This document shows, piece after piece, positions 1-21,596 of a stretch of DNA of 32,228 nucleotides (within the stretch, counting starts at the first letter, position 1; the number at the start of each line of letters is the position of its first letter). The DNA is taken from positions 1 through 32,228 of the IMG/VR virus record IMGVR_UViG_3300031920_000439; one strand, written 5' to 3'. The DNA comes from a virus. A model generated the notes under the pieces. The model worked only from the letters and a program-made list of their open reading frames with translations. It was not told where the DNA came from and ran no database searches. Both the position numbers and the translations under genes were made by a program.

Positions 1-25
1 TAGCTTCAGTTTGTGTTATATTCAT
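1..25 (-). CDS. 5' end of next late gene (partial)
   Basis: An ATG at 23-25 on the minus strand opens a frame reading MNITQTEA that runs off the left edge. It follows the portal gene stop by one base, as the other late genes here follow one another closely. A capsid-module gene would be expected after portal in crAss-like phages, but eight residues cannot show this. Confidence 0.35.
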
Positions 26-26
26 T

Positions 27-2228
27 TTAGTTATTTTTTATTTCGTCATTATTCTTATTATCATCCAATAGTTGAAGAGCTTCTAATTCTATTCTTTTCT
101 TATCTAATTCAAGACTAGAATCTTTATATTCAGCATCACTTTTTGCTTTGTACCATCCAATTTCTTTTTCATAATCTTGTTTTTCTTCTTCTAATGTTAA
201 TTTAGCTTCATTAAGTTGTTTAACTTGTTGTTCTAATTTTTTAGCTTCAGAAGTAACTTCTTTCAATTGTTTATCCAAATCTTGAACTTGTTGGTCTAAT
301 TGTGACACTTGACTATCTTCTTGTTTCTTCTTATTAATAGATGTAAATACATCATATTTCATTTTTGTAAGTCCTGATGCAGTAGCTACTTGAATAAGTA
401 CTTCTGGATCAACCATACCATTTTTACTAAGTTCAACAGTAAGTTCTTTAATAACTTCCATTTCTCTTTTAATTTCTGAAGTATCAGTGATATGTATATC
501 AAAATCTGTAAAACTATAATGTTGAGGTAAAGCAGTAAATATTTTATTAAGTCTTTCTCCTAATATTAAAGTACCTGAAATTCCATTCTTATAAACTATT
601 TTTGAAATATTTAGAATATCAATTAACATTTCTCTTGTCATTAAATCCATTAACTTATAATAAGGCTTAGTTATAAAAGAAGATTGAGTTACTCCAACTT
701 CTACGTTTGTTACAGCATCTCTTTGTTCTATTCCTCCTAATTTCTCTCTAAAAACTCCTGTTATTCTTGAACAAGTATTTTCTACTCTTTCAATAGCTAA
801 ATCAATAGCTTGTATTGTTTGTAATTTTATTGAATCATCAAATCCAGCAAAAGAAGTATTTATTACCTCTCCTTCTTGTGAACTATCATATAATGCTAGT
901 CCAGATTTTTTATAGGCTTTAAACTTCATTAATCTTTCTGCAACATCTACTCCTAAAAATTTAGGTAGATGTGCTACATCAACTCAATCACCTACTGATC
1001 CTGATTCTGCAATAACATTATCTCTATAAAAATGTAGACAATCAAACTTGTCCTGTAAGTTTGCTGTTTTTATTACTAATGAAAATGGTTCTCCATTTCT
1101 ATCAGCATGAAATATTCCATTTACAGCTAATGTACATTCTTTTGGAGTATCTAAACTTCTTACTGCAGTTTCTGATTTTCCTAGTGTAATATAAATATTA
1201 GTATTAATTCTAACACCTTCATATCTATTAGTAATAAATTCTTTCTTTTTCTTATCAGCCTGAAGCCATTCTACCTCATATACAGGATAAGTTCTAAAAC
1301 GCTGTGAAGAACTATTTTCAAATGGTAATAATGGAGTTATTTCAAATCCACCTAATATCCCATCTGATATTGGATTATCAACAAGAGTATCCATACTTCT
1401 TAAATAAGTAGTATTTCCATCCGTTTGTCCATAATCATGTAAAGTTTCTAACTCTTTTAAATCATCTGTAGTTAATATGTCTCCATACTTTCCTAGAATT
1501 TGATCTTTAGTCATATAAGTTCTTATAACAGATCTTGCTGAATCTTTTAGATATGGTGATGTTGGATTTCTATCAATAAATGTATTTATAGGATTAAGAA
1601 CCTGTAAATCTACATTAGTATTTCCAGAAGTTGGCACTGCTTTATAATAACACATTCCAGAAATAAGTAAGTCTAATAAAATTATATTTCTTTTATTAGC
1701 AAAATCTATATTTCTTGAAATCATAGAATACTCTACAATATTTTGTCCTGCAACTTCATAATCTGAAATAAAATTTCTTTCAGTAATCTCTTGCAATTCT
1801 ATAAGTTGTTTTTCTATTGCTTTATCAGTTGTATCTGGTTTTCCTCCTACAATTGCAGTGTAAATCGAATTTCTTAAATGCTTATTCAATTCTTTAGCTA
1901 ATGTATTATTAATATGTAACTGTTTTTCTCTATGTATATTAGAAATTGTTTCTTTGTCTTTACAAGAAATTTTTGGTTGTACAGGCGTTGCCATATACTC
2001 CCCTAATAATACATCAATATGGTTTTTGGCTAAAGGAGTAAATTCAACAGAAGTAGGAGTTCCAATTCCATAATTTTCTTCTAGATGCCTAAATTGTTCA
2101 GGATCTCTTTTAGCATGATAATAATTATAAGCCTTGATAATTTGTGTCTTCTCATAAACTAATTCATTTATTGTCTTATCAATTTTTTTAATTATTTCTA
2201 TTTCTTTTTTATTCTTCTCTTGAATCAT
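27..2228 (-). CDS. Portal protein, with in-frame TGA read as Trp
   Basis: This is the probable portal protein, which forms the ring at the capsid vertex through which DNA is packaged. With TGA at 984-986 read as Trp, one frame of 733 residues runs from ATG 2228 to TAA 27. Under the standard code it breaks into pieces of 414 and 300 residues. The call rests on size, position directly after the large terminase, and overall character: an N-terminal helical part, a mixed alpha/beta middle, and a long charged coiled-coil tail (roughly the last 90 residues, rich in Gln, Lys and Glu). No short diagnostic motif is visible. The start overlaps the upstream 95-residue gene by 20 bases. Confidence 0.75.
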
Positions 2229-2496
2229 TTGTTCTTATAACTTTATATATTTCTAATCTCATATAATTTCTAGTTCTTAATTCTTCATATATAAAATCTA
2301 AAAATTCTTGATCACTTTCTGTATCATATCCGATTGTAGTTGGAACCATATAGCTAGGCATACCGAGTGTAAATACATAGGAAATACCTTCCTGTTCTAC
2401 ACGAAGTAGTCCGATATATTCTGCCTTATATAAGTTCTTTATATAATCATGAATCTTGTTCTCTAGGTCTTTTCTTCTCATTTCGTTCTTCTTCAT
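2209..2496 (-). CDS. Hypothetical protein, 95 aa, between terL and portal
   Basis: A small protein of unknown function. It begins with a charged, Lys/Arg-rich helix and then has a mixed alpha/beta segment with several aromatic residues. It ends with TAA and contains no TGA. It overlaps the portal start by 20 bases. If the terminase frame reads through its last TGA, this gene also overlaps the terminase end by about 70 bases, which is long. Either the true start is further inside or the terminase stops at TGA 2447-2449. Confidence 0.6.
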   Translation of the reverse strand: MKKNEMRRKDLENKIHDYIKNLYKAEYIGLLRVEQEGISYVFTLGMPSYMVPTTIGYDTESDQEFLDFIYEELRTRNYMRLEIYKVIRTNDSREE

Positions 2497-4504
2497 TTAA
2501 TGGTATTTTTCCATACTCTTTATAACCTCTAGCATTTGTATATCAACCTATATCCCTAAACTGTTTAGCTATTGCATCTTGGACAACAGGTTTTCTAAAT
2601 GAAAGTTCTTCATCTCCAAGTTCTGCCATTCCCATAGCGGCAACAATATCAAAGTCTTTTTTTCGCTCATCAGAATATGTTAACAATTGTTTTATAATTT
2701 CAGGAAAAGCTATTGTATGACAGTAATCTAATATAAAATCATAGATTAATTCTCTATAATGAACAATAACTTTTTCAGGAGTTGGTGTTCCATACATTTT
2801 AGAATTTCCTTTTGCAACATCAGGCATTGTAGCTCTTGGTCTTCTCATCAGTAAATGTAAATATTTTGCATCTCTAAAATATGTTAATATAGCAGTTCTA
2901 GTTGCTTCTAATACTGCTTTACAACCATAGTAAGTTAATAGTTTTGCTGCATTTTCATATGCATCTCTAATATCTCTTGGTCTTTCTTTATATATAGCAA
3001 CATATCCTGGCTCTTGTAATCCAAAAGTTCTCTTTTTTATAACTATACAAAATTCAGATAATTTATCAGAATAAGAAGAATCGTTCTTACCTATATCAAT
3101 GGAGTCAATTCCACCAACATATAAATTTCTATATGAACTTCCATCCTCTGATTTTAATGGGTGTTCTAAGATCTCAATCTTTCCATCGTCCCCTCCTCTT
3201 CATTTTAACTTCCTTGACTGTTCCCCATCTTCAGTTACTCATACTAAATGTCCATTTTTAGGTTTATCTACTGTTTTATATATATGAATAGCAGCATCTT
3301 GTTCTGCTAATTCTTCTCTTGGAAAAATATTATCTCCTTCTCCAATAAGAGCCTCTTCCATAGTATAGCAGAATTCTGCCTTATACATAAGAAGTCCTTT
3401 AGGGTCTGCAGCTTTTGCAATCCTTATTGCATCTTCTTCTGCTTTTCCTTTTATAGGATCTACTCACCCTCTCTTATCTGCCAAATGAAATGTTGTAACA
3501 TAAACAGGAATAAACATAGAACTTAATACAGCTTGTCCATCTACTGTATGTCTATTAACATACGGTAAAATGTTAAAAGTTTCTGGAGTAAAAGCCATAT
3601 TTCTAATACCTTCTATTGCAGGACCTTTATCACCACCAGTTCCTCAACCAATTCTTGTTCCAATCTTATCACCCATTACTTTAACGAGTGCTTCTCCTTG
3701 AATTCATTTTTTCTTAAATATTTTATCAGAACCAGCTTCTTCAAAAAATAGACGCTCTGTTCTATCACCCCTAATTTTCTCAGGCTTATCAGCAACTACT
3801 CCTTCAACTTCAGACATATGACCTGATTCTCTTCCGTTTTTATCACGCATAGATGCTCTTTTAAAGTATCTACTATCGTTTACCATTCGAACTCTTTTAA
3901 AAGCAGTTTCCGTTTCTTCATTTACCCAATCTAATTGAGCTCAAATTTTAGCTAATAAAGGTTTTAAGTGATTATCAGAAAATGCAGAAACCATGACTCT
4001 ATAGTTTGGAGTTGTAATATAAGGTCTTGCACATAAGCAAGCACCTATTTCAGAAAATCCAATACCACGAGATTTTAAAAGTCCTACATCTTTTCCTAAT
4101 ACTTCACAAATTTCTACATAATGAAAATACTCATATTGAAATACTAAAAAGGTTGGAAAATCTACTCCCCTTCCTTGCCCGGCTCTGTTTCCTTTCTTAG
4201 AAGTTTTAAGTCTATAAAAATTTAATCAAAAATAATTATCTCCAGTTACTCTATATCCATTTATTGTATAGCCATTATCACATCGTCTCATTCTTTCTTT
4301 TCAGAAATCTCTTTGTGTTTTAGAACCAACAAGAGCATTACTATAGTTACCTGTACTAGCTTTTGCTAAAGCATCTTGTCTGAATCAATCAGGGTTAAAA
4401 TCTAAACTATCTTTTTCATTTATTGGTTTATACCCAGTAATTTCATAAGATAATCGTGCATCAAATGCTTCTATTTTATCGTCTATTTTAACATCTCATT
4501 CCAT
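2426..4504 (-). CDS. terL: Terminase large subunit, many TGA codons read as Trp
   Basis: This is the packaging motor ATPase and nuclease. The frame from ATG 4504 encodes about 692 residues, but only if TGA is sense. Around twelve in-frame TGA codons occur, the first at codon 3, and all sit where Trp reads naturally (for example MEW, FKKKW, RIGWG, LVWV). A Walker A-like stretch SRGIGFSE lies near residues 145-152 and a Walker B-like RLFFEE near 251-256. The C-terminal half has acidic residues typical of the RNase H-like nuclease (GGIDSIDIGK, then DIVAAMGMAELG). The last TGA (2447-2449) could be the real stop; reading through it adds only WLYKELI before TAA. Start codon and upstream stop are two bases apart. 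Confidence 0.9.
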
Positions 4505-4506
4505 AA

Positions 4507-5097
4507 TTAATCTACTCCATATCTATCAAACATGCCAGGTTCTTTATCTCCTCGCAATAATGATTCTGATTCTGATTCTTTCTTAAATTGCAATTCCAGA
4601 GTTTTAATTCCTTCTATTAATTTACTAGCACTTGTTATTTCAGCAATAACATCTTTTGTTTTAAATACTGGTTTACCAGTAGCTGGATCTCTCTCCATTA
4701 GGTCGAGAGTATTTAAATAATATGTAATTTTATCAACAGTGTCGAAAGATGCTTTTAATAGGTTTCCTATTCTTGATGAATTTTGTATAGTCTCATATTT
4801 TTTACAGGCTGTTCTAAAAACTTCATCAGCAAACTCTTCTTCTGTTAATCCTGAATCTAAAAGAGATTCACTATATCTATCTGATTCTGAAAACTGAAAA
4901 TATGGACTTTCCCAATCAAAAAATAAATATATAAATTTAAATTCTTTAAAGGCTAATTCTCTTTTACTTCCAGTCTTATCTGTTTTACTTTTATTCCTTT
5001 TTGCAGTAATCAAAAGAGTAAACTCTTTAACTAAGAGTATACTTTCATCTTTTAATCCTACAGTTCCCTTAACATGATCATATGCAAAAAACTTCAT
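4507..5097 (-). CDS. Conserved-looking protein before terL, 196 aa
   Basis: A 196-residue acidic, mostly helical protein with no TGA codon. Nothing in the sequence identifies it. It lies directly upstream of terL with a two-base gap, so a small-terminase or packaging-accessory role is possible by position only. The C-terminal third is Glu/Ser/Lys-rich (a run of SESES) and ends in a short tail likely to be unstructured. The N-terminal third contains an aromatic cluster (FKFIYLFFDWESPYFQF). Confidence 0.6.
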   Translation of the reverse strand: MKFFAYDHVKGTVGLKDESILLVKEFTLLITAKRNKSKTDKTGSKRELAFKEFKFIYLFFDWESPYFQFSESDRYSESLLDSGLTEEEFADEVFRTACKKYETIQNSSRIGNLLKASFDTVDKITYYLNTLDLMERDPATGKPVFKTKDVIAEITSASKLIEGIKTLELQFKKESESESLLRGDKEPGMFDRYGVD

Positions 5098-5100
5098 ATT

Positions 5101-5529
5101 CTATTTCTTTAATTTACATCCACAAGAACATTTAGAAGTCATTTTTCCACCTTTTCCTTTAGTAGCTACCATAGCGCAACCACAAGAACATTTTCTAACT
5201 CCTATATTTTTTCCCTTTTTATAACTTTGTAATTTCTTTAACTGTTTTAATTTTGCTCCTTTTCGAGCTATTTTTGGCTCATCTATAGATTCTTCTACTG
5301 CAGGTTCTTTTTTAGAAAGTTCTTGCATATCAGTACCAATGGCTTCTCAATCTTCTTCTGTTAATTTAGAAGCAGCTTCAGTTATTTTTTCTATATCTTT
5401 TGGATTACTTTCTATTACTTTTGCTCATTCCTCAAAATCAGTAATCTCACCATATTTAGCTGGATCTAACTCTTTAGAGTAAGTCCAAGCAAAATATGGA
5501 AATAATTCTTTTTTCTTTTCGTTTGTCAT
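5101..5529 (-). CDS. Small protein with C-terminal Cys-rich repeats, TGA-recoded
   Basis: The frame runs 142 residues from ATG 5529 to TAG 5101 when two TGA codons are read as Trp (contexts FEEW and EEDW). The standard code would leave only the last 75 residues. The N-terminal half is acidic and helical. The C-terminal part is Lys-rich and ends in two copies of a CSCGC motif (KCSCGCAM and KCSCGCKL), which suggests metal binding or disulphide bonding. The start overlaps the stop of the upstream 74-residue gene (TAATG). Function unknown; co-transcribed with terL and portal. Confidence 0.7.
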
Positions 5530-5753
5530 TATTTATTAATTTTTAACAAATCCTTAGTATTATATACAGCTTCTTGCATTAATCCTTGAGTAGTAAATCA
5601 TCTACATAGAATTCCTTGGAAATAATTTCCTTTAGTTCCGTCTATTTTAATACTTTTAGTTACTTTTTTAACCATAATCATGGTTGGTTTATTTGGTATA
5701 TCTTGTCTAAGAGTAATTATATCTCCTGGCAAGAAAAATTGTTTTTGTTCCAT
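5529..5753 (-). CDS. Small beta-rich protein, 74 aa, TGA-recoded
   Basis: The reading frame from ATG 5753 to TAA 5529 contains one TGA, read as Trp in the context LCRWFTT. It begins MEQKQFFLPGDIITLRQD, where PGD followed by alternating hydrophobic residues resembles a small SH3-like or KOW-like barrel. That is a structural impression, not an identification. It overlaps the next gene by the TAATG junction. It is too short and too interrupted for a standard-code gene caller. Confidence 0.6.
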
Positions 5754-5760
5754 TATTCCT

Positions 5761-6288
5761 TTACATTTTAAAACGTTCTTTTAATTTTTCATTTAAAACA
5801 CATAGTACCTGATTTTCTTGAGTTAATTTATATCCTAAAGACATAAATGGTACTGGATAAACTGTTCTGGTATCATAATAAATATCATCCCCAGGTTTTA
5901 AGTATTTAACTTCTGGTCCTACTTCAATAACTTCAGCACAACCTACAAATACTTCTTGTTTATCTTTTTCTCCTGTATCGGGATTATTAAACTCACCATC
6001 CCAATCTACTATAATATTGCCTTCCATAACTTTCCTATAAGGATTTTTTGGGTATGCTGATAATATTATCTTATTACCCATTGGTAATATTTCAAGATTT
6101 TTTAATTTCTTATTAATTGTCTCTTGTTTTTCTTTTGAGGCTGCTATTAATTTAGTACTTAATTCATTTGCTTCTCTTTCTTGTTTAGCTTTAAATGATA
6201 AGTTGTCTAATAATAGATCATCTTCATTGTATTTTAGATTCTTTCCCATCATAAATACTCCATTTGCTTCATTTAGTGTCTTTCCCAT
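5761..6288 (-). CDS. Possible GroES-like (Cpn10 fold) protein
   Basis: A protein of 175 residues. After a helical N-terminal part (about 65 residues), the C-terminal half has the order of elements seen in GroES: a hydrophobic strand after a LPMGNK motif (compare PLGDRV), a GCAEVIEVGPEV segment (compare GKVIAVGPG), a KPGDDIYYD segment (compare GDKVLF) and a final VLCVLNE strand (compare ILAVL). This suggests a co-chaperonin-like fold acting on virion proteins. The resemblance was judged by eye and no mobile loop is obvious. The frame has no TGA. ATG 6288 is the first start after the preceding stop. Confidence 0.45.
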   Translation of the reverse strand: MGKTLNEANGVFMMGKNLKYNEDDLLLDNLSFKAKQEREANELSTKLIAASKEKQETINKKLKNLEILPMGNKIILSAYPKNPYRKVMEGNIIVDWDGEFNNPDTGEKDKQEVFVGCAEVIEVGPEVKYLKPGDDIYYDTRTVYPVPFMSLGYKLTQENQVLCVLNEKLKERFKM

Positions 6289-6309
6289 AATTCATTTTCT
6301 TTTTAATTG

Positions 6310-6582
6310 TTACCATTTTTTAGCCGGACAATGTGCCGACTCAACTCTTCCTTTTGATTTCAATACACAACCACAACCTCTATAAAATCCTTCTTTTCTT
6401 ACTCTTGAAACTTCTTCAGTTTCAGGATTTAGATATAGTCTTGAATTGCATACGCCACCAAACATACTATCTTTTCTAAATAATTTGCATTTACCACAAA
6501 TTTTTATTCTTTGTTCATATAAATCTTCTTTTTTTCCTGTGAGGTTATTATAAAATCCCTCGGCTATTTGATTAATAGACAT
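6310..6582 (-). CDS. Cys-rich zinc-binding-like protein, 90 aa
   Basis: A small protein with many cysteines: CGKC near residue 29, a GGVC, a CGC near 71 and a final HCP close to the C-terminus. The spacing suggests two metal sites. Such proteins occur in structural modules of Bacteroidota phages, but the role is unknown. The start lies 19 bases inside the end of the upstream secreted-protein gene, so translation is probably coupled. No TGA codon is needed. Confidence 0.6.
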   Translation of the reverse strand: MSINQIAEGFYNNLTGKKEDLYEQRIKICGKCKLFRKDSMFGGVCNSRLYLNPETEEVSRVRKEGFYRGCGCVLKSKGRVESAHCPAKKW

Positions 6583-7022
6583 AATATTAACGTTGCTGCG
6601 GTAGCTACTATTGCTCCCTTTTTAAATCCTTTCTTAAGACTGTTTTTCTTAACCTTTTCTATTTCCAACCTAAAATAATCTTCTTCTTCTTCTTGTAATA
6701 CTATTTGATTAGTTAGTGTTAAATCTGCTATTGATAATTGATTTTTATAATTAGCAGCAGTCTGTTCCCATAATACATTTTTTTCTTCTAGTAAAACTAG
6801 TTTTTGTTTACTTATCTCATATTGTACACTCTGAAACTCTAGATCGGTTATATATCTTCTAAATATATAAGCATCATATTTATTAAGAGTGATAGTCATA
6901 ACTGTATCGATATTATTTGTTATCGGGTTTATAATTGTGTCTAATGCTGTCGATTTTTGCGCTAAACCACTGAGAGTGCTCAGAAAGAGTAGCATCGCGA
7001 ATAATATTAATTTCGTTTTCAT
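6564..7022 (-). CDS. Exported coiled-coil protein, possible spanin partner
   Basis: A protein of 152 residues with a clear N-terminal signal peptide (MKTKLILFAMLLFLSTLSG, then LAQ). A long Glu/Lys/Gln-rich coiled coil follows, and a C-terminal hydrophobic segment (GAIVATAATLILCLLI) probably spans a membrane. It starts 110 bases inside the upstream gene in a different frame, the layout of Rz/Rz1 lysis pairs. There is no lipobox cysteine after the signal peptide, so it is not a classical outer-membrane lipoprotein spanin; it could be a unimolecular-type variant or an unrelated envelope protein. Confidence 0.55.
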   Translation of the reverse strand: MKTKLILFAMLLFLSTLSGLAQKSTALDTIINPITNNIDTVMTITLNKYDAYIFRRYITDLEFQSVQYEISKQKLVLLEEKNVLWEQTAANYKNQLSIADLTLTNQIVLQEEEEDYFRLEIEKVKKNSLKKGFKKGAIVATAATLILCLLIK

Positions 7023-7320
7023 GATTCTGATTAATTATATTTTGTTGTTGTGAAATAGAATCTATCTTATAATTAATAGCGTCTTGCCGTTCTGTTAGAA
7101 CTTCATTAATAATATTAATTGAATCTATCTCGGCTTGATAAAGAAAAATTAACTGTTCTTGCTGTCTTTTAAAATTATCAAACTTATTTTTTTCATTATC
7201 TATATAGTCCATATTAAATGTTATTGCAAAATAGCCTAAAACAAGTAACAGAACCATAACTAAAACATGAATTATATTCTTAGAATATAATTTTTTCCCT
7301 ATTTCTTTTAAATTCTTCAT
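6913..7320 (-). CDS. Inner-membrane coiled-coil protein, i-spanin-like
   Basis: A protein of 135 residues with one N-terminal transmembrane helix (about residues 17-35, HVLVMVLLLVLGYFAI) and then a long Gln/Asn/Glu/Ile coiled coil, presumably periplasmic. This is the shape of an inner-membrane spanin, which helps fuse the two membranes at lysis. The 3' part contains the start of the next gene in another frame, and its own start lies inside the end of the exonuclease gene (41-base overlap). Function is inferred from topology and overlap only. Confidence 0.55.
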   Translation of the reverse strand: MKNLKEIGKKLYSKNIIHVLVMVLLLVLGYFAITFNMDYIDNEKNKFDNFKRQQEQLIFLYQAEIDSINIINEVLTERQDAINYKIDSISQQQNIINQNHENEINIIRDATLSEHSQWFSAKIDSIRHNYKPDNK

Positions 7321-9199: not shown

Positions 9200-9200
9200 T

Positions 9201-9890: not shown

Positions 9891-9934
9891 TTAATCTGTT
9901 TATTATTTTATACTTTTGTTTAATTACTTTGACA

Positions 9935-9942
9935 CAAAGATA
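9935..9942 (-). promoter_or_regulatory. Bacteroidota-type -7 box for the late operon
   Basis: The minus strand reads TATCTTTG here, matching the Bacteroidota -7 consensus TAnnTTTG, about 45 bases upstream of the ATG at 9890. The -33 side is A/T-rich with no clear TTG. It lies in the gap between two minus-strand operons. Confidence 0.45.
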
Positions 9943-10031
9943 TTAATAATTTTCTAATTAAAATATTTTTTTCATTAATTTGTAATTTTTAATGTTAATA
10001 TAACTCTATTGTGTTAATTTTTATTGGACAT

Positions 10032-10060
10032 AAAAATAGGAGACAAGTGATTGCCTCCTA
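10032..10060 (-). terminator. Rho-independent terminator after phoH
   Basis: The minus strand has a 10-bp stem (TAGGAGGCAA paired with TTGTCTCCTA, one G-T pair), a TCAC loop, and five T residues. It begins five bases after the PhoH stop and ends the second minus-strand operon, before the late-operon promoter. Confidence 0.85.
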
Positions 10061-10064
10061 AATG

Positions 10065-10754: not shown

Positions 10755-10863
10755 AAGGTAAACAAAATTAAATACGTGTTATTTCACAAGACCCTCCAGC
10801 ACACGCTACTGCTGCAAAGTCACTTACATCTTTGTAAGTGGGTTTATCCAGAATTGTTTCTAA

Positions 10864-13094: not shown

Positions 13095-13097
13095 ATA

Positions 13098-13745
13098 TTA
13101 GATTTTATATTTCCAAGTAAACCCTCCGGAAGTCTTCCGTGTCCCTTTACATACTTTTATTATACCACTTGCATCAATATTTAATTTTTCAGAAGCATTT
13201 TTAATGGATTCCCAATTTTTAATAAATTCTCCTGATTTTGAATATTGAGATATTTGTTTTTTATGTGAATTTCCAATTTTTAATTTAGTTTCTTCTGAGA
13301 CTATTTTGCCTTTTTGTGCTTTAGATATTTTTTGTTTTGTTTCGTCTGAATGTTTATTTCCTAAACAATTAGTATTTCCAATTCTATTAATAGAGAATTG
13401 TCTTTTCGTTTCTTCTGAATGTTTATGTCCCAAAATTCCTCCACCACCTAAAGTACAATTATATCCATTACTATAACTGTCATAGTAACTTATATATGCT
13501 ATTTCTAATTTATCTAAGATTGTTTTTAGTTTATCTTTATCACACAGAGTAATATCTTTTGTTTTATATATCTCTTCATATTCTAAATTATCTATTCCAT
13601 ATTTTTTTATAGCATTACCAAACTTAGTATTAGTTTTACTAGTTATATGTTTATGACTATTTTTTCTATTATTACTAGAAACTGTTTGTCCAATATAAAT
13701 TTTACCCGATGGGCTGGTATATTTATATATAATTCCTACTTGCAT
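13098..13745 (-). CDS. GIY-YIG homing endonuclease with NUMOD domains
   Basis: A protein of 215 residues. The N-terminus has the GIY-YIG core (GIIYKYTSPSGKIYIGQT), with a conserved Arg and an IAYISYY segment later. Two or three NUMOD3 repeats follow (GHKHSEETK, GNKHSDETKQKISKAQKG, VSEETKLKIGNSHK), and a NUMOD1-like C-terminus (SIKNASEKLNIDASGIIKVCKG). It is free-standing between a small gene and nrdJ, three bases from the nrdJ start, so it probably homes into the nrdJ region. No intron is evident around it. Confidence 0.9.
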   Translation of the reverse strand: MQVGIIYKYTSPSGKIYIGQTVSSNNRKNSHKHITSKTNTKFGNAIKKYGIDNLEYEEIYKTKDITLCDKDKLKTILDKLEIAYISYYDSYSNGYNCTLGGGGILGHKHSEETKRQFSINRIGNTNCLGNKHSDETKQKISKAQKGKIVSEETKLKIGNSHKKQISQYSKSGEFIKNWESIKNASEKLNIDASGIIKVCKGTRKTSGGFTWKYKI

Positions 13746-14050
13746 TATGCTAATAATTCTATCTCTAATATTGCTGGTTCAATTCTAATTCTACCTAAAG
13801 CAATTAATCTATCTAATGTGTGTTCTGAATTAAGTCGCCTTAGAATATTATTAAATAATACTATATTAGCTCTATGTGACTTACCTTTTCCAGCATGATC
13901 TTGTACTTTAACTGTGTTGCCTTCAAATAAGTTTTGAATAGCAAAGTTAACTTGTCTTGTTGTATTTCCAGATGCTCTATCTGGATCAAATTCCATTTCT
14001 ATTGTAGATACTACTGGAGCATCTACAATTGTAATTACTGTTTTTTTCAT
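13745..14050 (-). CDS. Hypothetical protein, 101 aa
   Basis: A small protein with an N-terminal beta strand (KTVITIVDAP), a basic middle (DHAGKGKSHRAN) and a hydrophobic C-terminus. I do not recognise a family. The stop overlaps the ATG of the GIY-YIG gene (TAATG). It is preceded by a hairpin leader at 14068-14093. No TGA codon is used. Confidence 0.6.
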   Translation of the reverse strand: MKKTVITIVDAPVVSTIEMEFDPDRASGNTTRQVNFAIQNLFEGNTVKVQDHAGKGKSHRANIVLFNNILRRLNSEHTLDRLIALGRIRIEPAILEIELLA

Positions 14051-14398: not shown

Positions 14399-14470
14399 AA
14401 TATTTTAATTTAACTTCTATTTATCTATTTGCAGGCTCGACAAGAGTTGAACTCGCATCGTGCGGTTTTG

Positions 14471-15075
14471 CTTACCACTACAGTTTTCACTGCCATAAAA
14501 TGTTTGTGGTCTGGACTATATCTTCACCTTATACTAAACTTAGGTGGAGGATCATCTAGTCTCTACGGGCTGAATTACTTCATTCCCTCGGTATTGCCAT
14601 CAACATTATTTGTTAAGGTTTCACCGATATTATCCTCTCCATCCATAATGTTTCCACTATGAAGCTCCATTAGATTAAAATTATTTTTATATTCTTTCAA
14701 TTTATTTATTGAGATAGAAGAAGTATAATTTTGACTAAAAGATATTGGAATCATATATACATCTTCAGTTTCTAAATCTACTCCTACAAAGTAATCTATC
14801 TCTTCAGCTGTATATAAATGCGTTTTATGTTCAGTTTTATTATGAGTCATTTTTCTCATTGGAACACTTTTATACCCATTTCTCTTTTCTACTGTTACTG
14901 TTTTTATTTGAATACGTAAATATTTATTATCTTTTTCTATAATCATATCTACTTTACCATTTTCAATAACTGGCTTAAATACATTAAGCCCATTTCTAAT
15001 CAATTTTTGTTCTACTATTAAAGAGCCTAAATAACCCTTCTCAATTTTTCCTATTTCCATAATTTTAATCTGCTA
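14471..15075 (-). mobile_element. Group I intron inside the tRNA anticodon
   Basis: An insertion of 605 nt that ends in G and follows a T of the 5' exon, as group I introns do. The 5' splice site is ambiguous by one or two bases in the T run 15075-15077. Core elements on the minus strand are an R-like segment ending CCGTAGAGACTA (14557-14574) and the S-like AAGATATAGTC (14514-14524). Their GACTA/TAGTC parts form P7. CACCT/AGGTG forms P8 (14525-14529 with 14542-14546), and CAGT-GAAA-ACTG (14481-14492) is a P9-type hairpin with a GNRA loop. P3 can form from GAGGAT inside the end of the ORF. I could not locate P1. Confidence 0.9.
14575..15060 (-). CDS. PD-(D/E)XK homing endonuclease encoded in the intron
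   Basis: A protein of 161 residues. The core is GYLGSLIVEQKL, then KVDMIIEKDNKYLRIQIKTV, that is a Glu-containing first helix, an Asp, and QxK: the PD-(D/E)XK arrangement. The cyanobacterial tRNA-intron endonuclease I-Ssp6803I is the known example of such an enzyme in a tRNA group I intron, and the layout here is the same kind. The ATG lies 15 bases into the intron and the 3' end overlaps the catalytic core. It presumably cuts intron-less copies of the suppressor tRNA gene to spread the intron. No TGA codon is used, so it does not depend on the tRNA it interrupts. Confidence 0.82.
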   Translation of the reverse strand: MEIGKIEKGYLGSLIVEQKLIRNGLNVFKPVIENGKVDMIIEKDNKYLRIQIKTVTVEKRNGYKSVPMRKMTHNKTEHKTHLYTAEEIDYFVGVDLETEDVYMIPISFSQNYTSSISINKLKEYKNNFNLMELHSGNIMDGEDNIGETLTNNVDGNTEGMK

Positions 15076-15117
15076 AAGACCGCTGTGTTACCATTACACC
15101 ACGAGCCTATTTTTTAA

Positions 15118-15330
15118 CTATATCTCTTCTAAGATTTCTTTCAGTATTCCTGCATCTATCTCGGTAAGTAAATATCTTCCACCACCCTCTTTGTTAATAT
15201 CTTCATAAATTTCCATTTCATCCTCAAAAAATCTGATATTCCATGTATCTTTATTCCATTCATCTCTATTTTCACCTCTAGTAAATCCATACTCTAATAA
15301 ATATGACTCTATTATTTCATTTTCTTTCAT
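15118..15330 (-). CDS. Small acidic protein, 70 aa, probably leaderless
   Basis: ATG 15330 gives an acidic protein of 70 residues (MKENEIIESYLLEYGFTRGE) with Trp encoded by TGG only. No family is recognised. A TTG start two codons upstream is possible but unlikely, because the promoter box at 15334-15341 places the transcript start at or next to the ATG. It is first in the operon that carries the suppressor tRNA, ending 10 bases before it, so it can be made before the recoded genes. Confidence 0.65.
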   Translation of the reverse strand: MKENEIIESYLLEYGFTRGENRDEWNKDTWNIRFFEDEMEIYEDINKEGGGRYLLTEIDAGILKEILEEI

Positions 15331-15333
15331 ACA

Positions 15334-15365
15334 CAAATATACGAATATTTTTGGCTAAAAAACAA
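15334..15365 (-). promoter_or_regulatory. Bacteroidota promoter of the tRNA/nrdJ/phoH operon
   Basis: The minus strand has TTG (15363-15365), a 21-base spacer, and TATATTTG (15334-15341), matching the -33/-7 consensus of Bacteroidota. The usual distance puts the transcript start at about the A of the ATG at 15330. Confidence 0.65.
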
Positions 15366-15628: not shown

Positions 15629-16399
15629 ATGAAAAGAGTAGAATTGAAGCCGACTGCAAAAGTATCGGTTAGTAAAAGTGTGTTGAAAAAATACAAAGTA
15701 GATAATCAAGATGTATATTTCTTGAAAGATGGAACAGAATTTGAGATAGAATTATTTAATCCATTACAAGAAACTGTGTTATGTAATATTATTTTTAATG
15801 GAAAGAAGAGTAATAATGAAGGATTAGTTTTAGAGCCGGGTCAAAGAATTTTTTTAGAACGGTATTTAGATACTAATGATAAATTTCTATTTAATACATA
15901 TGAAGTAGAAGATAATGATGAAGTAAGATTTGCAATAGCGGAAAATGGATTAGTAAGAGTTACTTTCCATAAAGAATCTTTTAATTATTCTTATAATGTT
16001 AATGGCTGGGTAACTCCAAATATTATTGATATGGATAATTGGACATCTCCAAACATATTTTATTGTAATACTACAGGTACAAGTATAGATAGTTTTGCTA
16101 CAATTACTAATAGTGTAATGACAACAGCTAGTGGAAATTTATCAACTAATACAGTAACATTAGATGGAATTATTGAAACTGGAAGAATTTCTAAAGGGAA
16201 TGAATCTGATCAAGCTTTTACTTATGTAAATAAAGATTTTAATATTTATTCATTTTCTCATGTAGAATTTAAACTATTACCTAATACATACAAACCTAAA
16301 ACAAGTAAAGACTTAAAAGTAAGAACATATTGTACACAGTGCGGAAAAAAGGCTAAAGTTAAAAGTAAATTCTGTTCTGCATGTGGAAATAAATTATAA
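15629..16399 (+). CDS. Beta-rich virion-type protein with C-terminal zinc ribbon
   Basis: A protein of 256 residues. The body is beta-rich with many Asn, Thr and Val residues and ends in a zinc ribbon (CTQCGKK, then FCSACGNKL: two CxxC knuckles). All Trp codons are TGG and it ends with TAA. It is the first gene of the rightward block and is followed by TGA-recoded genes that look structural. I do not recognise the family; a virion or assembly protein is the likeliest reading from context. Confidence 0.65.
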   Translation: MKRVELKPTAKVSVSKSVLKKYKVDNQDVYFLKDGTEFEIELFNPLQETVLCNIIFNGKKSNNEGLVLEPGQRIFLERYLDTNDKFLFNTYEVEDNDEVRFAIAENGLVRVTFHKESFNYSYNVNGWVTPNIIDMDNWTSPNIFYCNTTGTSIDSFATITNSVMTTASGNLSTNTVTLDGIIETGRISKGNESDQAFTYVNKDFNIYSFSHVEFKLLPNTYKPKTSKDLKVRTYCTQCGKKAKVKSKFCSACGNKL

Positions 16400-16403
16400 A
16401 TAA

Positions 16404-16727
16404 ATGAAGAACTGACTGGAATTACATAAAATTAAAAAGTTACAAAAAGGGAATGTAATTCCAACAGTAATTGTATATGGCAAAGAAAAATATAAAGAAG
16501 AACTAAAGAAACAGCAAGGTAAGTATTTAGCTGACATGAATAAATACAGTAAAGATAGTACTCAGTGGGTTAATGCTAATAAGGCTTATCAGGCTTATCA
16601 GGCTAGTTTAAGTGTTTATAATGGTTCTAAAGTTCAATGGGATATTATGAATAATAAGAATGTGACCGAATGGAATAGTAGATTAAAAAGAATTAGCAAT
16701 GATTCAATCAAATGAATTCTGCATTAG
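16404..16727 (+). CDS. Hypothetical protein, 107 aa, TGA-recoded
   Basis: Starting at ATG 16404, four bases after the previous stop, the frame has TGA as its fourth codon (MKNW) and again near the end (SIKWILH) before TAG at 16725-16727. Two normal TGG Trp codons also occur. It is Lys/Tyr-rich and probably helical, with a short repeated NKAYQAYQA stretch. The standard code hides it entirely. It overlaps the next gene by 16 bases. Confidence 0.6.
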
Positions 16728-17177
16728 ACTTAAAGAAAATGGTAAATACATTTCCAGTTTTAGGTGGAGCAGCAATAGGAATTAATGAAATTTTTAAAAA
16801 ACAAATAGGTGGTTCAATTGATTGATTAGGAACGTTAAAAAAGAAGAGATTTCTCCAACCTAATAGTCCTAAATTACCAAGTGGTACAAAAGTACCTTAT
16901 AGAGAAGGAAGTAATTCAGAATTATCGATGTCTATTGGTGGAGAACAAGGTGAACCTGCTTATCTTATACCAACTTTTAAGTATGGAGTACCACTAAAAG
17001 ACCCAAGAGGTGAGTATAGAAAAACAGGAGAACATCTTGGAGGACCATTTAAGACTTGACAAGACTTGACAAGAAGCAGATAAATGAGGTATAAATGTAA
17101 GACATCCTTACGTAGAGAAGAATCAAAAACTTCCATCACCTCTTAAATGATGAGGTAAAACAAACATAAATAAATAA
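16712..17177 (+). pseudogene. Small protein broken by a 10-bp tandem duplication
   Basis: From ATG 16712 the frame reads MNSALDLKKMVNTF and on through one TGA (IDWLGTL) to GGPFKTW, then into AAGACTTGAC repeated twice (17051-17070). As written the frame then stops at TAA 17081-17083 (123 residues). Removing one 10-bp copy lets it continue as QEADKWGINVRHPYVEK and LKWWGKTNINK to TAA 17175-17177, just before the next gene. That second half uses three TGA-Trp codons. The duplication is therefore probably a recent mutation or an assembly fault. The intact protein would be about 150 residues, function unknown. Confidence 0.55.
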
Positions 17178-17179
17178 AC

Positions 17180-19131
17180 ATGGCTAAAAAGTACATTAAA
17201 GGAAAAGCCGCACCACTCAAAGAAGGGCAAGTACGTGTAAAATCAGGTGATTCTTTATGAAGACTTGCTGCAAAATACACAGGTAGCGGAACTAATTGGA
17301 AACAATTAAATGGAGGTAAGAAATTAATTAAACCCGGAGATATAGTTGACATTCCAAAAAATATATGGAATCCTGAAGTAGAGATTGATGGAAAGAAATT
17401 AAGGTGAAGGAGTAAAGAATATAAAGAAGCTTATGCACGAACAACAGATAAAGAAGGTGATGCAAAACAAGCTCGAAAAGATCTTTATGCTGGACAAGCT
17501 AAAAAAGGTGGAGATGCTGCAAGAAAAGCATCTGGCACTTTTGCAAAGGAAGCTGGTGCAACAGTAATGAATGCGATGGATATGCCAAGAAGATTGGTAG
17601 CTGCAACAACCAATGATGACTATTCATATAAAGATGCACTACAATTTTTTGGAACACAAGACTATAAATCTGTAGTAGGTGATGAATATGCAGCAGCACA
17701 TCCAGGAGTGGCAGCAGCTGCTGATATTGGAACAGGTTTGTTAGCATGAAACCTTCCATCCATTACAAGATCTATTGCAAAAACAGGAGTAAATGCATCT
17801 AGAAATGCAGCTACAATAGCAAAACATGCAGATGATGTAGCTAGAGTTAATTCTACAAAATATGTACAAAGAGCAAGAGCAGTAAAGGATATTAATAAAG
17901 GTATTAAAAGTCCTTCTGGACATACAGCACCAAATAAAGAAGCATTTGCTGCTCCAGCAAGAGGAAGTATTCTCCCAACTCCAACAGTATCTACAGTTAG
18001 AGAAGGTAGTAGAGGTGCAGGTAATGTTTCTGGTTATACTAAAGTAGGTAAAGTAAGTAAAGGAACAGGAACTAAAGGGCAAGGTTCAGGATGGTTATCG
18101 AAAAGAGGTAACGTAGGTGGAGGACAAGTAAAAGGTGGACATGTACAATCACCTTTAAGAATACCTAATGTTAATATGGGTCCGGTACAAGGTCCAGTAT
18201 ATTCACCTTTCATTCCTATTCCGGGATTGCCAGGAGGTATTGCACCACCAGTTATTACACCAGAACCTAAATCAAGGATAGAAACTAGAACTCCAGGACG
18301 ATCTTCATTGAGCGAGTTATTTATAGAAAATAATATAACTCCAGGAGATACAATGGTAATGCCAGGAGGTGAACAAATAAGATACAATCCTGAACCAGAT
18401 AGTACTTGAGTTCCAAGATACTTTGATATAGAAGCTAGGAATACATATGATGAGGATGCAGATAATGTAACTAACCAAAATTGGATTCCAAGAGCATCAG
18501 ATGTAACATATAAGAAAGGTCAAAAATCTGTTAATAAGTATTATCCTGCAGTTCCAAAAGGAGAGGTAAGAACAAATGATTATTACCCAGAAGTAGTAGG
18601 TGGTAAACCTACATACAGACCTATTAAATATCAACAAGGTGGGAAAATAAAGGGTGATAAAATGGGTAATGGCAAACCATTAAGAAGTGGTTTTAAAAAG
18701 ACTACTTATATAAGTGAACATGCTAAATTAAAAGCAAAAAGAGATTCATTAAAAGCATTACCAAATGCTAATAAGATGAAAATTAAAGCTAAAATATATG
18801 ATAATGAACAAGCCATTAAAGATTTAAAAGCTTCACAGAAACCTAAAGTTTATATTAAGAGAAAGAAGAAAACTATTAAAAAACAAGATGGTGGAGTAAT
18901 GCCTATAGGAATAGGTAATACTGCAAATATAATAAAAGAGTTCAGAAATATAGGTAGACCTCTTGGAAAATTTAATCGTTTAGTAGATCTCCTGTTGCAA
19001 ATCCAGTAGGTAAATCTATTAATATGAATCCTACCAAAACAAGATACCTTAATCCAAAACCTGGTATAGCACCAGTAAATCCAGCAGGTAAGTCAATAGA
19101 CTTACTTCCAGGAATAAAACCAAGAGCTTAA
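17180..19131 (+). CDS. LysM-domain protein, about 650 aa, TGA-recoded and frameshifted
   Basis: ATG 17180 opens a frame with an N-terminal LysM domain (residues about 16-62: VRVKSGDSLWRLAAKYTG, then NWKQLNGG, then LIKPGDIVDIP), which binds peptidoglycan. Ala-rich, Gly/Pro-rich and Lys-rich low-complexity stretches follow. Four TGA codons read as Trp, one of them the conserved Trp of LysM. The frame as given stops at TAG 19007-19009. A single extra T at 18979-18981 would continue it as SRSPVANPVGKSIN to TAA 19129-19131, where a short NPxGKSI motif recurs. It is probably a virion-associated cell-wall-binding protein. Confidence 0.7.
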
Positions 19132-19139
19132 AACAAAAA

Positions 19140-19172: not shown

Positions 19173-19435
19173 ATTGTATCTGTTAATATTACATCATCTA
19201 ATGCATCTTTTGTTATTCCATTAGTTTCCTTGCCAAAAGCCAATTCTCTTAAAAGAGTAACCATAAAAGATTCCTCAGCTATATGCCTAACCTCTATACT
19301 AGGTATTTCTTTTATATAAATAGCTACTACTGAAAGTATTATTATGTTTTAATAATATTCTATATTCACATCTATTCTTTGTATAGAATATTCATAAGAA
19401 AGTAGTGCTTCATTTATTAATTCTTCTGTAATCAC
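19151..19435 (-). pseudogene. Small protein split by an in-frame TAA
   Basis: A GTG at 19433-19435, overlapping the upstream TAG (TAGTG), opens a frame that reads 28 residues to TAA 19349-19351. It then continues uninterrupted in the same frame for about 66 codons (NIIILSVVAIYIKEIPSI, then EESFMVTLLRELAFG) to TAA 19151. The uninterrupted length and protein-like composition after the stop suggest one protein of about 94 residues with a nonsense mutation. The second part has only a late internal ATG. Function unknown. Confidence 0.4.
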
Positions 19436-19710
19436 TATAGTAAATCTTCAAGTATATCTAACGTATTAAATGTGCACTCTAAAGTACCTATTATATGAGT
19501 TATATAATCTTCTATTTGTCCTATTATACCAGGAGCTTCTACTGGAACTTCCATATTTTCTTTAACTATAGGTATTCCAAAAAGTTTACCTCTTATTATA
19601 TCAGCTCTATCTTGAACTATAGTAGTATTAGTATTTATTGCCTCTAAATCACATAAAATTTGTTGAAATCTACTATTCTTCTTTTGCTCTGCTTCTTTTG
19701 TCATTATCAT
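19435..19710 (-). CDS. Hypothetical helical protein, 91 aa
   Basis: A mainly helical protein of 91 residues (MIMTKEAEQKKNSRF, then LEAINTNTTIVQDRADIIRGKL). A start at the second Met (19704) is equally possible. No TGA codon and no recognised family. It is part of a chain of short overlapping genes running leftward from 21596. Confidence 0.6.
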   Translation of the reverse strand: MIMTKEAEQKKNSRFQQILCDLEAINTNTTIVQDRADIIRGKLFGIPIVKENMEVPVEAPGIIGQIEDYITHIIGTLECTFNTLDILEDLL

Positions 19711-19713
19711 TTT

Positions 19714-19905
19714 TTATAAGTCTTCATAATATATATATCCATTTATTTCCAGGTCGGACCTTCCTATATCTATTATTGTTTGTTCAGCATCTATAAAGTT
19801 ATCAAATATTAATGCATCATCTATTATTCCAGTTAAATAACACACTCCATGGTCATGTCGTTGTACTCACCTTTTATGTTGAGTAGCTTTTAATATTCAT
19901 TCCAT
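19714..19905 (-). CDS. Hypothetical protein, 63 aa, TGA-recoded
   Basis: Visible only if TGA is Trp: ATG 19905 reads MEWILKATQHKRWVQRHDHG with TGA at codons 3 and 13, and runs to TAA 19714. The ATG overlaps the upstream stop (TAATG). The composition is ordinary and the end is Tyr-rich. Function unknown. It shows that recoding extends into this small-gene operon, not just the virion genes. Confidence 0.55.
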
Positions 19906-20129
19906 TACATTGCAACAGCAGTTACTCCATTTATATTATAAAATCCATGTTCTACTACTTTAAATCTATCTTTATGTACAATACTATCTTTATAAGTTTT
20001 AGCTTCTTCAATTGTATCTGTTCTAATACAATCATAGTGATCACTTGTTAATGTAGTTGTACCTTTTGTAATCTCTTTAACATATAATCTTGAATCTTTG
20101 TGTTCTATTAAATATTTAATATATTCCAT
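19905..20129 (-). CDS. Hypothetical protein, 74 aa
   Basis: A protein of 74 residues (MEYIKYLIEHKDSRLYVKEI) of alpha/beta character, similar in style to its neighbour at 20131-20313; both could be small single-domain proteins of one family. No TGA codon. Function unknown. Confidence 0.6.
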   Translation of the reverse strand: MEYIKYLIEHKDSRLYVKEITKGTTTLTSDHYDCIRTDTIEEAKTYKDSIVHKDRFKVVEHGFYNINGVTAVAM

Positions 20130-20130
20130 T

Positions 20131-20313
20131 TCATTCTATTTTTTCTACTTCAAAACCATCTGGTGCTTTTTCATTTGCTTCTTCATAAGTATAATACTTA
20201 TCTGCCAAAAGTGTACTATTGGTAAATATAACTTTACCTTTCTTTATGTTATATACGTAATTACCTGTTTTTATATGCTTAATTACAAACATATAGTTAT
20301 TAAATTCGTCCAT
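20131..20313 (-). CDS. Hypothetical protein, 60 aa
   Basis: ATG 20313 (MDEFNNYMFVIKHIKTGNYV) gives 60 residues. An ATG at 20331 would add six residues and lengthen the overlap with the upstream gene. A YTYEEANEKAPDGFEVEKI segment recalls small beta-beta-alpha phage proteins that repeat a column of Tyr and Glu. Function unknown. Confidence 0.55.
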   Translation of the reverse strand: MDEFNNYMFVIKHIKTGNYVYNIKKGKVIFTNSTLLADKYYTYEEANEKAPDGFEVEKIE

Positions 20314-20656
20314 TATATAGATTTTTAACATGTAAAGCGTCCTGAATAACTGTAGGACTAAAATGTTTTTGTAATTTCTTATTTATAATAAGAGTAACCA
20401 AGTGTTTAATTATTATTTCACATTTCTCTTGATATTTTAATTCAGCACTTTTAGAATAGAAAGCTACCTTATAGCCGTCTTCAGTAATTATCATATTCCT
20501 ATCAATAACTCAAGTTTCGATATCTTTTTCGGCTAGCTCACTTGAGTATTGCACAATTGCATCATGTAACTTTTCGCTATCACTCAACCCTTCTTTTATA
20601 TCAACCACATCAGTTTTTAAAGGAATTGAGTAATATACTATATCTCTATTTTCCAT
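20300..20656 (-). CDS. Hypothetical protein, 118 aa, TGA-recoded
   Basis: ATG 20656 begins MENRDIVYYSIPLKTDVVD, and the frame is open to TAA 20300 with one TGA read as Trp (DIETWVIDR). A standard-code caller would see only the last 64 residues. The central part is helical and rich in Glu and Lys. I do not recognise a family. It follows the 79-residue gene by 11 bases. Confidence 0.6.
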
Positions 20657-20667
20657 AAATTCAATCT

Positions 20668-20907
20668 TTATAATTTAATTGCATGTTCTATCATTAAATC
20701 CATCTGTTCTAATACAATTTCACGTAAATCAATCCATTTACCAAAAAATTTATATTTATAATCTTTATTATGTTCTTCTTTAAATAATCTACAATATCGG
20801 ATAACATCACTAAGTAGTTCTGCTTGTTCTTTTGTAGTTTCTGATTCTCCACTATAGTATTTACTAAAGGCTTCTTCTATTATATCTTTATACTCTTTTT
20901 GTGTCAT
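20668..20907 (-). CDS. Hypothetical helical protein, 79 aa
   Basis: An acidic, helical protein of 79 residues (MTQKEYKDIIEEAFSKYY). Its ATG overlaps the stop of the HTH gene upstream (TAATG), so the two are probably co-translated. No TGA codon and no family recognised. Confidence 0.6.
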   Translation of the reverse strand: MTQKEYKDIIEEAFSKYYSGESETTKEQAELLSDVIRYCRLFKEEHNKDYKYKFFGKWIDLREIVLEQMDLMIEHAIKL

Positions 20908-21596
20908 TATAAATTTACTATATCACTATTATCTTTTAGGTGCATCTGTTTCTTTAAACTATCCACTTCTTTAAGTAGATATTGTATAGTCTTATTATTT
21001 TCATCTTGTCCTTCTTGTAATAGATTTACCTTTTTATCTATAAATAGTATAGCCTGCCCAAGCTTTTCTAACTGAAAGAACTTTATATTTTTAGATAGCC
21101 CACTATCGGATTTATTCATGACTAGTGCACCTTCTTCTTCTAAAGAATTATCATAAGTTTTAATCTTATACTCCGATAAATTAATCTTACTAGAGAGTTC
21201 TCTATTGTTGTATGAGGTTTTTCCTATATTATGTTCTTTAATCATGTGTTGTTGAGTTGCTATCAAGTATGCTTTTTCTCTTGGAGGGACATTATTATCT
21301 AAAAAGTCATAACTAAATCTTTCAAATAAACCTTTTTGTGTACTAAATTTGTATATATGCTTTCTTCCGTCCTCTGTAATTTCTATCCATTCTTCTTCTT
21401 CTAAAATCTTTATAGATTTTCTTATTGTATTTATGGAGAATTTGCATTTAATTGATAAAGTCTTTAGAGATGGAAAGGCTTGTCTAGTACCATTATTCAT
21501 GTACCTCTTAATAGTAAGATATATGAATAAGTCATTAGGAGTTAATTTGCCTGATTTTGTCATGTTATGAGGTAGTTGTACATGTTGTTTATTCAT
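20907..21596 (-). CDS. Winged-helix DNA-binding protein, replication-initiator-like
   Basis: A protein of 229 residues from ATG 21596 (MNKQHVQLPHNM); a TTG start at 21611 is less likely. The N-terminal domain matches the helix-turn-helix type found in plasmid and phage replication proteins: LTPNDLFIYLTIKRYMN, then AFPSLKTLSIKCKFSINTIRKSIKILEEE with the turn in the middle, and a beta wing. A middle domain and a C-terminal coiled coil with heptads (LLQEGQDENNKTIQYLLKEVD) follow. Repeats directly upstream (21613-21786) are likely binding sites. It heads the leftward small-gene operon and could be a regulator or an initiator. Confidence 0.7.
   Translation of the reverse strand: MNKQHVQLPHNMTKSGKLTPNDLFIYLTIKRYMNNGTRQAFPSLKTLSIKCKFSINTIRKSIKILEEEEWIEITEDGRKHIYKFSTQKGLFERFSYDFLDNNVPPREKAYLIATQQHMIKEHNIGKTSYNNRELSSKINLSEYKIKTYDNSLEEEGALVMNKSDSGLSKNIKFFQLEKLGQAILFIDKKVNLLQEGQDENNKTIQYLLKEVDSLKKQMHLKDNSDIVNL

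Follow-up and report, generated by a model that had tools for sequence, protein, structure and literature searches.

A mobile group I intron predicted to split the opal-suppressor tRNA of a probable crAss-like phage that reads TGA as tryptophan mostly in putative late genes

How does a phage that reads TGA as tryptophan in one part of its genome, and does without TGA in another, come by the tRNA on which the second code depends? This question is raised by a 32,228-base IMG/VR fragment (IMGVR_UViG_3300031920_000439), here called the window, by which we mean the whole stretch of DNA analyzed. An initial annotation had proposed that its left-hand genes read TGA as Trp and its right-hand block never does, that early genes use the host code and later ones a suppressor tRNA, and that this tRNA is gated by an intron. 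We consider it probable that the window comes from a crAss-like phage with two codes, the host code for early genes and TGA as Trp for late ones, the latter read by means of a tRNA with the anticodon UCA that is split by a homing intron.

RESULTS

Distribution of TGA and TGG in the window

The 30 open reading frames (ORFs) of the left block contain 32 in-frame TGA and 41 TGG codons, whereas the right block (22175-32228, plus strand) contains 26 TGG and no TGA, as initially claimed (Fisher P = 5.9e-6). The right-hand count leaves out a placeholder frame (24788-24967) and an ORF (24052-24234) that is open only with TGA read-through. The difference persisted without TerL (20/40 vs 0/26; P = 4.8e-4) and when all terminal TGAs on the right were scored as sense codons (4/28; P = 0.0017). 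When TerL was removed as well, P weakened to 0.045; part of the statistical strength of the split therefore comes from this gene. The left-block ORFs end in 23 TAA, 7 TAG and no TGA, whereas three right-block genes, at 25736, 27386 and 28378, stop at TGA (P = 0.027 against 0/30 on the left), the last one overlapping the next start as ATGA.

Within the left block, TGA is present in only 13 of the 30 ORFs, and several genes have no Trp codon at all. TerL (2426-4504, minus strand) has 12 TGA and 1 TGG and the LysM gene 4 and 4, matching the dozen and the four TGAs first reported. One to three TGAs had also been assigned to the portal gene, PhoH, the ribonucleotide reductase (RNR) and several small genes. 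This was correct for the portal (27-2228, minus strand; 1 TGA/2 TGG), PhoH (1/0) and the C-terminal RNR piece (2/4), but the small genes have one or two and never three. TGA accounts for 7 of 34 Trp codons in the minus-strand genes close to the tRNA described below vs 13 of 16 in TerL and portal together (P = 1e-4). The gene directly upstream of this tRNA (15118-15336, minus strand), the first of its operon, uses TGG only, as had been noted (0 TGA/2 TGG). Newcomers, namely, the exonuclease intein, a GIY-YIG gene and the N-terminal RNR piece, also avoid TGA. The intron endonuclease had been listed as a TGG-only gene, which was not borne out, as the window copy contains neither TGA nor TGG.

Meaning of TGA

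Genes related to TerL were retrieved from 52 IMG/VR loci (near-duplicates included) with identities of 49-64%, and TGA occurs inside TerL in all 52. At the 12 TGA sites of the window gene, these relatives have 340 TGA and 258 sense codons, of which 166 encode Trp, 51 Phe, 34 Tyr, 3 Leu, 2 Val, 1 Ile and 1 Arg. With Trp as the commonest residue and Phe or Tyr at another 85 positions, the alignment argues for TGA as Trp and against a different amino acid, the outcome that the initial annotation had named as contrary to its proposal. The window thus combines in-frame TGA at conserved Trp sites with a cognate tRNA, as is characteristic of TGA-recoded (code 4) genomes, and the Trp residues at aligned sites are an indirect sign that this tRNA may be charged with Trp.

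A split tRNA with the anticodon UCA

With introns allowed, ARAGORN returned a single tRNA in the window, tRNA-Trp(tca) at c[14431,15108], with a 605-nt intron after position 34. Its default mode, which allows no introns, found no tRNA in the window, and Rfam at gathering scores found neither the tRNA nor the intron there. As a control, 60 random 32-kb first-order Markov sequences yielded one tRNA call and none with the anticodon tca. The 5' exon of 33 nt (15076-15108, minus strand) ends in GGTCTT, with U34 as its last base; the 3' exon (14431-14470, minus strand) begins with CAAAACC and includes the discriminator G. The joined tRNA has the loop CUUCAAA and anticodon, acceptor and T stems of 5, 7 and 5 pairs. 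It is the only suppressor tRNA found in the window, and the ARAGORN call, the fold and the group I core presented below concur in the intron-split suppressor that had been proposed. Ordinary tRNA scans may therefore miss suppressors in TGA-using phages whose tRNA is present but split by an intron.

Many of the 52 TerL loci are too short to reach the tRNA site; the tRNA was detected in 15, and in 14 of these it has no intron. In all 16 cases (15 loci and the window), it lies on the same strand as TerL and 5.6-9.9 kb upstream, and therefore the decoder would be transcribed ahead of the genes that depend on it. The decoder thus comes first, and the recoded genes follow at a distance.

Identity and structure of the intron

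A DNA pattern on the 3' splice region matched 13 viral and 5 genome contigs. In 17 of the 18 contigs, the same core precedes the 3' half of a tRNA, whereas one was a chance match; L222 (Paenalcaligenes) was rejected because it has neither a group I core upstream nor a tRNA half downstream. Of these 17, one is truncated (L221, left out of the cloverleaf test) and two are duplicates (L174 and L219, removed from the alignment in favor of L118 and L218), so that, with the window, 15 distinct introns of 183-620 nt were available. The other fourteen all interrupt UCA tRNAs at the same nucleotide as the window intron (14471-15075, minus strand). No TerL relatives were found in 15 records of other intron phages, which are therefore not close kin of the window phage.

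We drew a structure from the window sequence and evaluated it on the 15-intron alignment. It comprises P3 to P9 with the P7 pseudoknot, and 95.8% of 451 cells are paired; P6/P6a was excluded from this count, as it aligns poorly. Both sides change in 20 of 31 pairs, a value reached by 0 of 500 shuffles, and slid versions of the structure attained at most 0.090 vs 0.430. Some bases of P9 and the 3' splice site were specified in the search pattern, so that P9 is partly built in, whereas P3, P4, P5, P8, P9.1 and most of P7 lay outside this pattern. In group I introns, a U precedes the 5' splice site and the intron ends in G. The search pattern already required the terminal G (omega-G) in the other introns, but it was not imposed on that of the window. 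An unconstrained search for the 5' site gave CTT/CAA the top score in 12 of the 15 introns and a tied score in L216 and L218; in L136 it fell outside the top four. By its P3-P9 core with P7 pseudoknot and its splice-site bases, the intron is assigned to group I, and self-splicing is predicted. The alternative that the introns reside in tRNA-Trp(CCA) was considered, and the unconstrained search favored CTT/CAA in the 12 introns mentioned. Splicing one base on, which would create the anticodon UUA, was discounted, as it would deprive the intron of its terminal G; an intron-minus relative and the loop length favor UCA.

By eye, a long variable arm with UCCA in its loop was seen in 9 of the 15 distinct intron-bearing UCA tRNAs (L184:4418-5114, L118:6521-6823, L223:1119-1813, L214, L215, L217, L220, L171 and L218) and in three intronless ones (L003/L005, L011/L014 and L035). 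In L184, this arm is a perfect tRNA-Trp(CCA) anticodon arm (ACGGT-CTCCAAA-ACCGT), and in L118, the Rfam tRNA model takes the CCA arm as the anticodon arm. A two-armed tRNA of this kind (UCA plus CCA) could show the Trp identity anticodon to the synthetase.

Mobility and distribution of the intron

Two related loci, L042 with the intron and L045 without it, are about 96% identical (96.5%) over 12.6 kb and 98.5% identical in the 1.7 kb before the junction. Their alignment is interrupted precisely where splicing is predicted (620 nt vs none). The comparison therefore provides exact intron borders, which supports the border position in the window. While no base differs in the 300 nt upstream of the tRNA, 5 of 33 positions are changed in the 5' exon and 6 of 39 in the 3' exon, and both halves of the anticodon stem are replaced. 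These clustered exon changes would fit homing with co-conversion of the flanking exon and also make an assembly artifact unlikely.

A wider pattern, independent of the UCA exon, matched at least 121 places in viral loci (L225-L343). Among the matches listed, at least 87 have the 3' exon AAAA, most of them called tRNA-Leu(UAA), and at least 3 are UCA-like. Group I introns are common in viral tRNAs, mostly tRNA-Leu(UAA) but also Arg, Asn and CAU tRNAs. In a rough FastTree phylogeny of 118 introns based on 172 nt, most UCA introns are nearest to other UCA introns, but L171 and L216 are placed close to Leu introns and L217 close to Asn and CAU introns. This suggests that the intron reached UCA tRNAs on at least three occasions.

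TGA was found inside ORFs of at least 250 aa in all 12 intron contigs of at least 18 kb examined besides the window (3-80 such ORFs per record). In the same contigs, ORFs cover more of the sequence under code 4 than under code 11, a weak sign by itself, as disregarding TAA increases coverage as well. We class these 12 contigs as TGA-recoded. Five short loci (L219, L220, L221, L223 and L224) have 0-3 ORFs of this length and no internal TGA. ARAGORN detected no intronless UCA tRNA in 13 records (the 12 contigs and the window), many of which are fragments. Four genome matches are contigs of Bacillota metagenome-assembled genomes. An AGGAG leader precedes five intron ORFs (L184, L214, L215, L220 and L223); the corresponding start in the window is AT-rich. 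The hosts of the intron phages probably differ.

The intron endonuclease

The window intron contains an ORF of 161 aa (14575-15060, minus strand) that matches PF11645 (E 1e-18). Nine of the 15 introns have such an ORF, and all nine match this family. A profile of the nine matches PDB entry 2OST (E 2e-5), which we take to be I-Ssp6803I, and residues D38, Q51 and K53 of the D...QxK site are invariant among them. The window ORF is, as judged by its sequence, a PD-(D/E)XK homing endonuclease of the I-Ssp6803I type. In the window and in L143, the ORF end lies inside the intron core, with an overlap that runs from P3 to P6a.

Four of the nine endonucleases (L184, L214, L220 and L223) share the position of a single in-frame TGA; L215 has TGG there, others have Leu, Phe or Tyr, and 2OST has Trp. 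L224 has a TGA at a different site, and the window copy has none. In the four loci with the shared TGA, the full endonuclease could need the mature UCA tRNA. DNA patterns on the 3' splice region found relatives far better than endonuclease searches: a scan with the window endonuclease alone gave no confirmed relative, and a two-member profile gave only the L042 contig.

Genome-wide split in relatives

In G003, a 178-kb relative, the plus strand at 0-70 kb contains 28 TGA and 123 TGG, the minus strand at 71-153 kb 203 and 53, and the minus strand at 153-162 kb, adjoining the tRNA, 0 and 11. In G025 (213 kb), the TGA/TGG counts are 12/202 in the early part, 114/96 in the late part and 8/24 next to the tRNA. 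The final 30 codons of every ORF were excluded from these counts, and ORFs were called mechanically, so that false frames yield some of the early TGAs. In G003, DNA polymerase, helicase and thymidylate synthase are encoded on the TGA-poor strand, whereas TerL, portal and a virion structural protein are on the TGA-rich one. Across 28 nonredundant relatives, TGA is avoided in tRNA-proximal orthologs (the exonuclease has it at 3 of 61 Trp codons and PhoH at 2 of 10). The TGA share is 217/332 in TerL and 48/88 in the portal gene, and it ranges from 0/2 to 19/21 in the small genes between.

The spatial split put forward for the window hence extends to a two-block pattern across both large genomes, but it is not a plain division into left and right, as tRNA-adjacent genes and newcomers avoid TGA too. 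The proposal that early genes use the host code and late ones need the suppressor agrees with the replication genes on the TGA-poor strand and with TerL and portal on the TGA-rich one; its timing is deduced from gene content. According to the available text of a review, TerL and structural genes are transcribed late, and replication genes earlier, in cultured Crassvirales (PMC10136315). By analogy, we infer a similar order for the window phage.

Other features of the window

No near match of bases 1-25000 was found among 50,697 phage records. Portal and TerL match PHROG phage families, presumably the crAss ones. The tentative assignment as crAss-like is based on these matches, on the relatives and on the block layout of G003. 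The genes from the tRNA to TerL (4507-14050, minus strand; 7 TGA/25 TGG) include the RNR in two pieces, PhoH, the RecB-type exonuclease and small genes; the order of PhoH, exonuclease and most small genes is the same in eight larger relatives. The exonuclease (7280-9241, minus strand; TGG only) has its DYK motif split by an intein (LPLDTPIL...VTHN) with a LAGLIDADG domain. The RNR (10864-13094, minus strand) occupies two overlapping frames that contain the N- and C-terminal parts of the barrel domain, which may reflect an error, a frameshift or an intervening element that escaped detection.

Upstream of the tRNA operon are four plus-strand genes (15629-19009; 8 TGA/9 TGG), including the LysM gene with its endolysin-like N terminus, six small minus-strand genes (19435-20907; 4/1) and a replication-initiation/DnaD-like gene (20907-21611, minus strand; 0/1). 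The latter has homologs in five relatives, and that in G003 borders its plus-strand block. The early-type block at 22175-32228 follows. Within it, the segment 23000-25060 (plus strand) has few long ORFs in places, and short sequences such as agttattgag recur as judged by eye. Its largest gene matches phage family phrog_33734 (E 5e-28), and a 680-aa protein had no match in 30 relatives. A TerD-domain protein and then a Na/Ca-exchanger-like protein are encoded at its end (31360-32228, plus strand).

DISCUSSION

In the model that we favor, the late block would be decoded by one phage tRNA-Trp-like tRNA with the anticodon UCA, and genes transcribed close to this tRNA would seldom contain TGA. This tRNA would have been invaded between U34 and C35 by a group I intron that is mobile and encodes a PD-(D/E)XK homing endonuclease. 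Production of TerL and its neighbors would then have to wait for transcription, splicing and charging of the tRNA. The C34-to-U34 change that would turn tRNA-Trp(CCA) into an opal suppressor would also supply the U needed at the 5' splice site. The creation of U34 would explain why the intron is in UCA rather than CCA tRNAs; the search pattern would also have picked up CCA cases. The intron would be mainly a homing element with the suppressor tRNA as its niche. The code, the split, the tRNA, the fold of the intron and its mobility are evident from sequence; we infer the early and late timing, splicing in the cell, charging with Trp and any delay of late translation.

Several observations weigh against this interpretation. 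The window core matches Rfam RF00028 (Intron_gpI) with an E value of 4e-6 but scores 29.7 vs a gathering score of 50, and the UCA intron of L118 is weak in Rfam (15.6 bits, E 0.11); a related tRNA-Leu intron (L233) does reach the gathering score. The intron family is found mostly in tRNA-Leu(UAA) among the matches listed, and because there were at least three separate arrivals, its UCA specificity is a tendency and not the property of a single lineage. The early block of G003 contains the 28 mechanically called TGAs. The genes at 22175-32228 have practically no homologs in the relatives with which they were compared, and the early timing of this block rests on position and on G003. Furthermore, small genes at 19714-20656 have four TGAs and follow the replication-initiation gene on the same strand, which would speak against the model of the initial annotation if they belong to early transcripts.

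The split could be unrelated to timing if TGA drifts in wherever the suppressor is present and TGA-free genes are recent or poor in Trp. We doubt this but take it seriously, as TGA is rare or absent in the newcomers (RNR, GIY-YIG gene, intein and intron ORF), and several left genes have no Trp. However, avoidance is kept across 28 relatives in the exonuclease, an old and Trp-rich gene, and spans whole blocks of two large genomes. Drift limited by the presence of the tRNA would itself be a timing effect, so that both readings are compatible. It is much less probable that the right block uses the standard code because it is foreign, either host sequence or part of a chimeric contig. The near lack of homologs and the TerD-domain and Na/Ca-exchanger genes at the right end are in favor of this reading, but the neighboring replication-initiation gene has homologs in five relatives and lies in G003 beside a plus-strand TGG block, the largest right-block gene matches a phage family, the G+C contents of the blocks are similar, and the same split is found in complete blocks of G003 and G025. 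Least credible is that TGA encodes another residue, or that the host itself reads TGA as sense and no switch occurs. Several related UCA tRNAs do have long variable arms, unusual for tRNA-Trp, but the 166 Trp and 85 Phe or Tyr among 258 sense codons oppose another residue, and a TGA-reading host is at odds with TGA stops in three right-block genes vs none of 30 on the left and with relatives that carry their own UCA tRNA.

The intron-gated tRNA of the initial annotation stands in that splicing is needed to make the tRNA; the gating is structural only, and 14 of the 15 loci with a tRNA have no intron. We regard it as unlikely that a group I family has specialized repeatedly on opal-suppressor tRNAs and gates the code, such that late proteins, including some of its own endonucleases, appear only after splicing. 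Somewhat more doubtful still is a selected, regulated switch in which the ribozyme times the code, with splicing held back early (for example, by cell conditions or by ribosomes on the intron ORF, which at its end overlaps P3 to P6a of the core) and released late. Such a switch would accord with the ORF end inside the core in the window and L143, the lack of an intronless UCA tRNA in the 13 records, the TGA read-through needed by four of nine endonucleases and the recurrence of the intron in recoded phages. Set against this are the intronless tRNAs of the crAss-like loci, L045, which does without the intron at about 96% identity to L042, and the signs of homing, which point to a parasite. In our view, the intron is a homing parasite that lives in the code-switch tRNA, and it may also act as a regulatory gate. 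The trigger of the code switch in recoded phages is directly testable here, as the decoder is broken by a predicted ribozyme with base-exact borders and an intron-free near-twin serves as a natural control.

Relation to known systems

Borges reportedly described late-gene stop-codon recoding in phages in 2022. The TGA split itself is already known in crAss-like phages, as the initial annotation had stated: recoding of TGA to Trp in late genes with suppressor tRNAs is in print (Yutin 2021, PMC7886860). In the sections available, that study and one on Zeta crAss-like phages (PMC12386605) describe the same mostly late use of TGA as Trp, a phage suppressor tRNA and two opposed blocks; the introns there are in protein genes, whereas in the window the suppressor tRNA itself is split. 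The tRNA genes of recoded Lak megaphages (Devoto 2019, PMC6784885) and jumbo phages (PMC13037316) are also split by introns, but the accessible portions of these reports give no group I assignment and name no intron-bearing suppressor, and Lak phages recode TAG.

Bacterial group I introns, such as those in tRNA-Leu(UAA) of cyanobacteria and the tRNA-fMet intron that encodes I-Ssp6803I, share the kind of ribozyme, the insertion after U34 and the PD-(D/E)XK endonuclease, although the host gene here is the opal suppressor of a recoded phage. The 2014 review that covers these introns (PMC3984707), in the part available, lists protein genes as the only location of group I introns in phages. Theta ribozymes likewise put a ribozyme between transcription and the mature suppressor tRNA (Kienbeck 2024, PMC10879173). 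They are HDV-like and self-cleaving at the tRNA end, in contrast to a splicing intron in the anticodon, and the word "intron" is absent from the text of that article as available. In a synthetic feed-forward loop (PMC7969014), output also needs both mRNA and suppressor tRNA; that loop was engineered, whereas the present arrangement is natural and has the tRNA encoded on the same strand as its dependent genes. A search of the full-text literature, with supplements and most subscription papers outside its scope, found no report of a group I intron in a suppressor tRNA. While the split is known, a code-switch tRNA cut by a mobile intron at a shared site in many recoded phages looks new.

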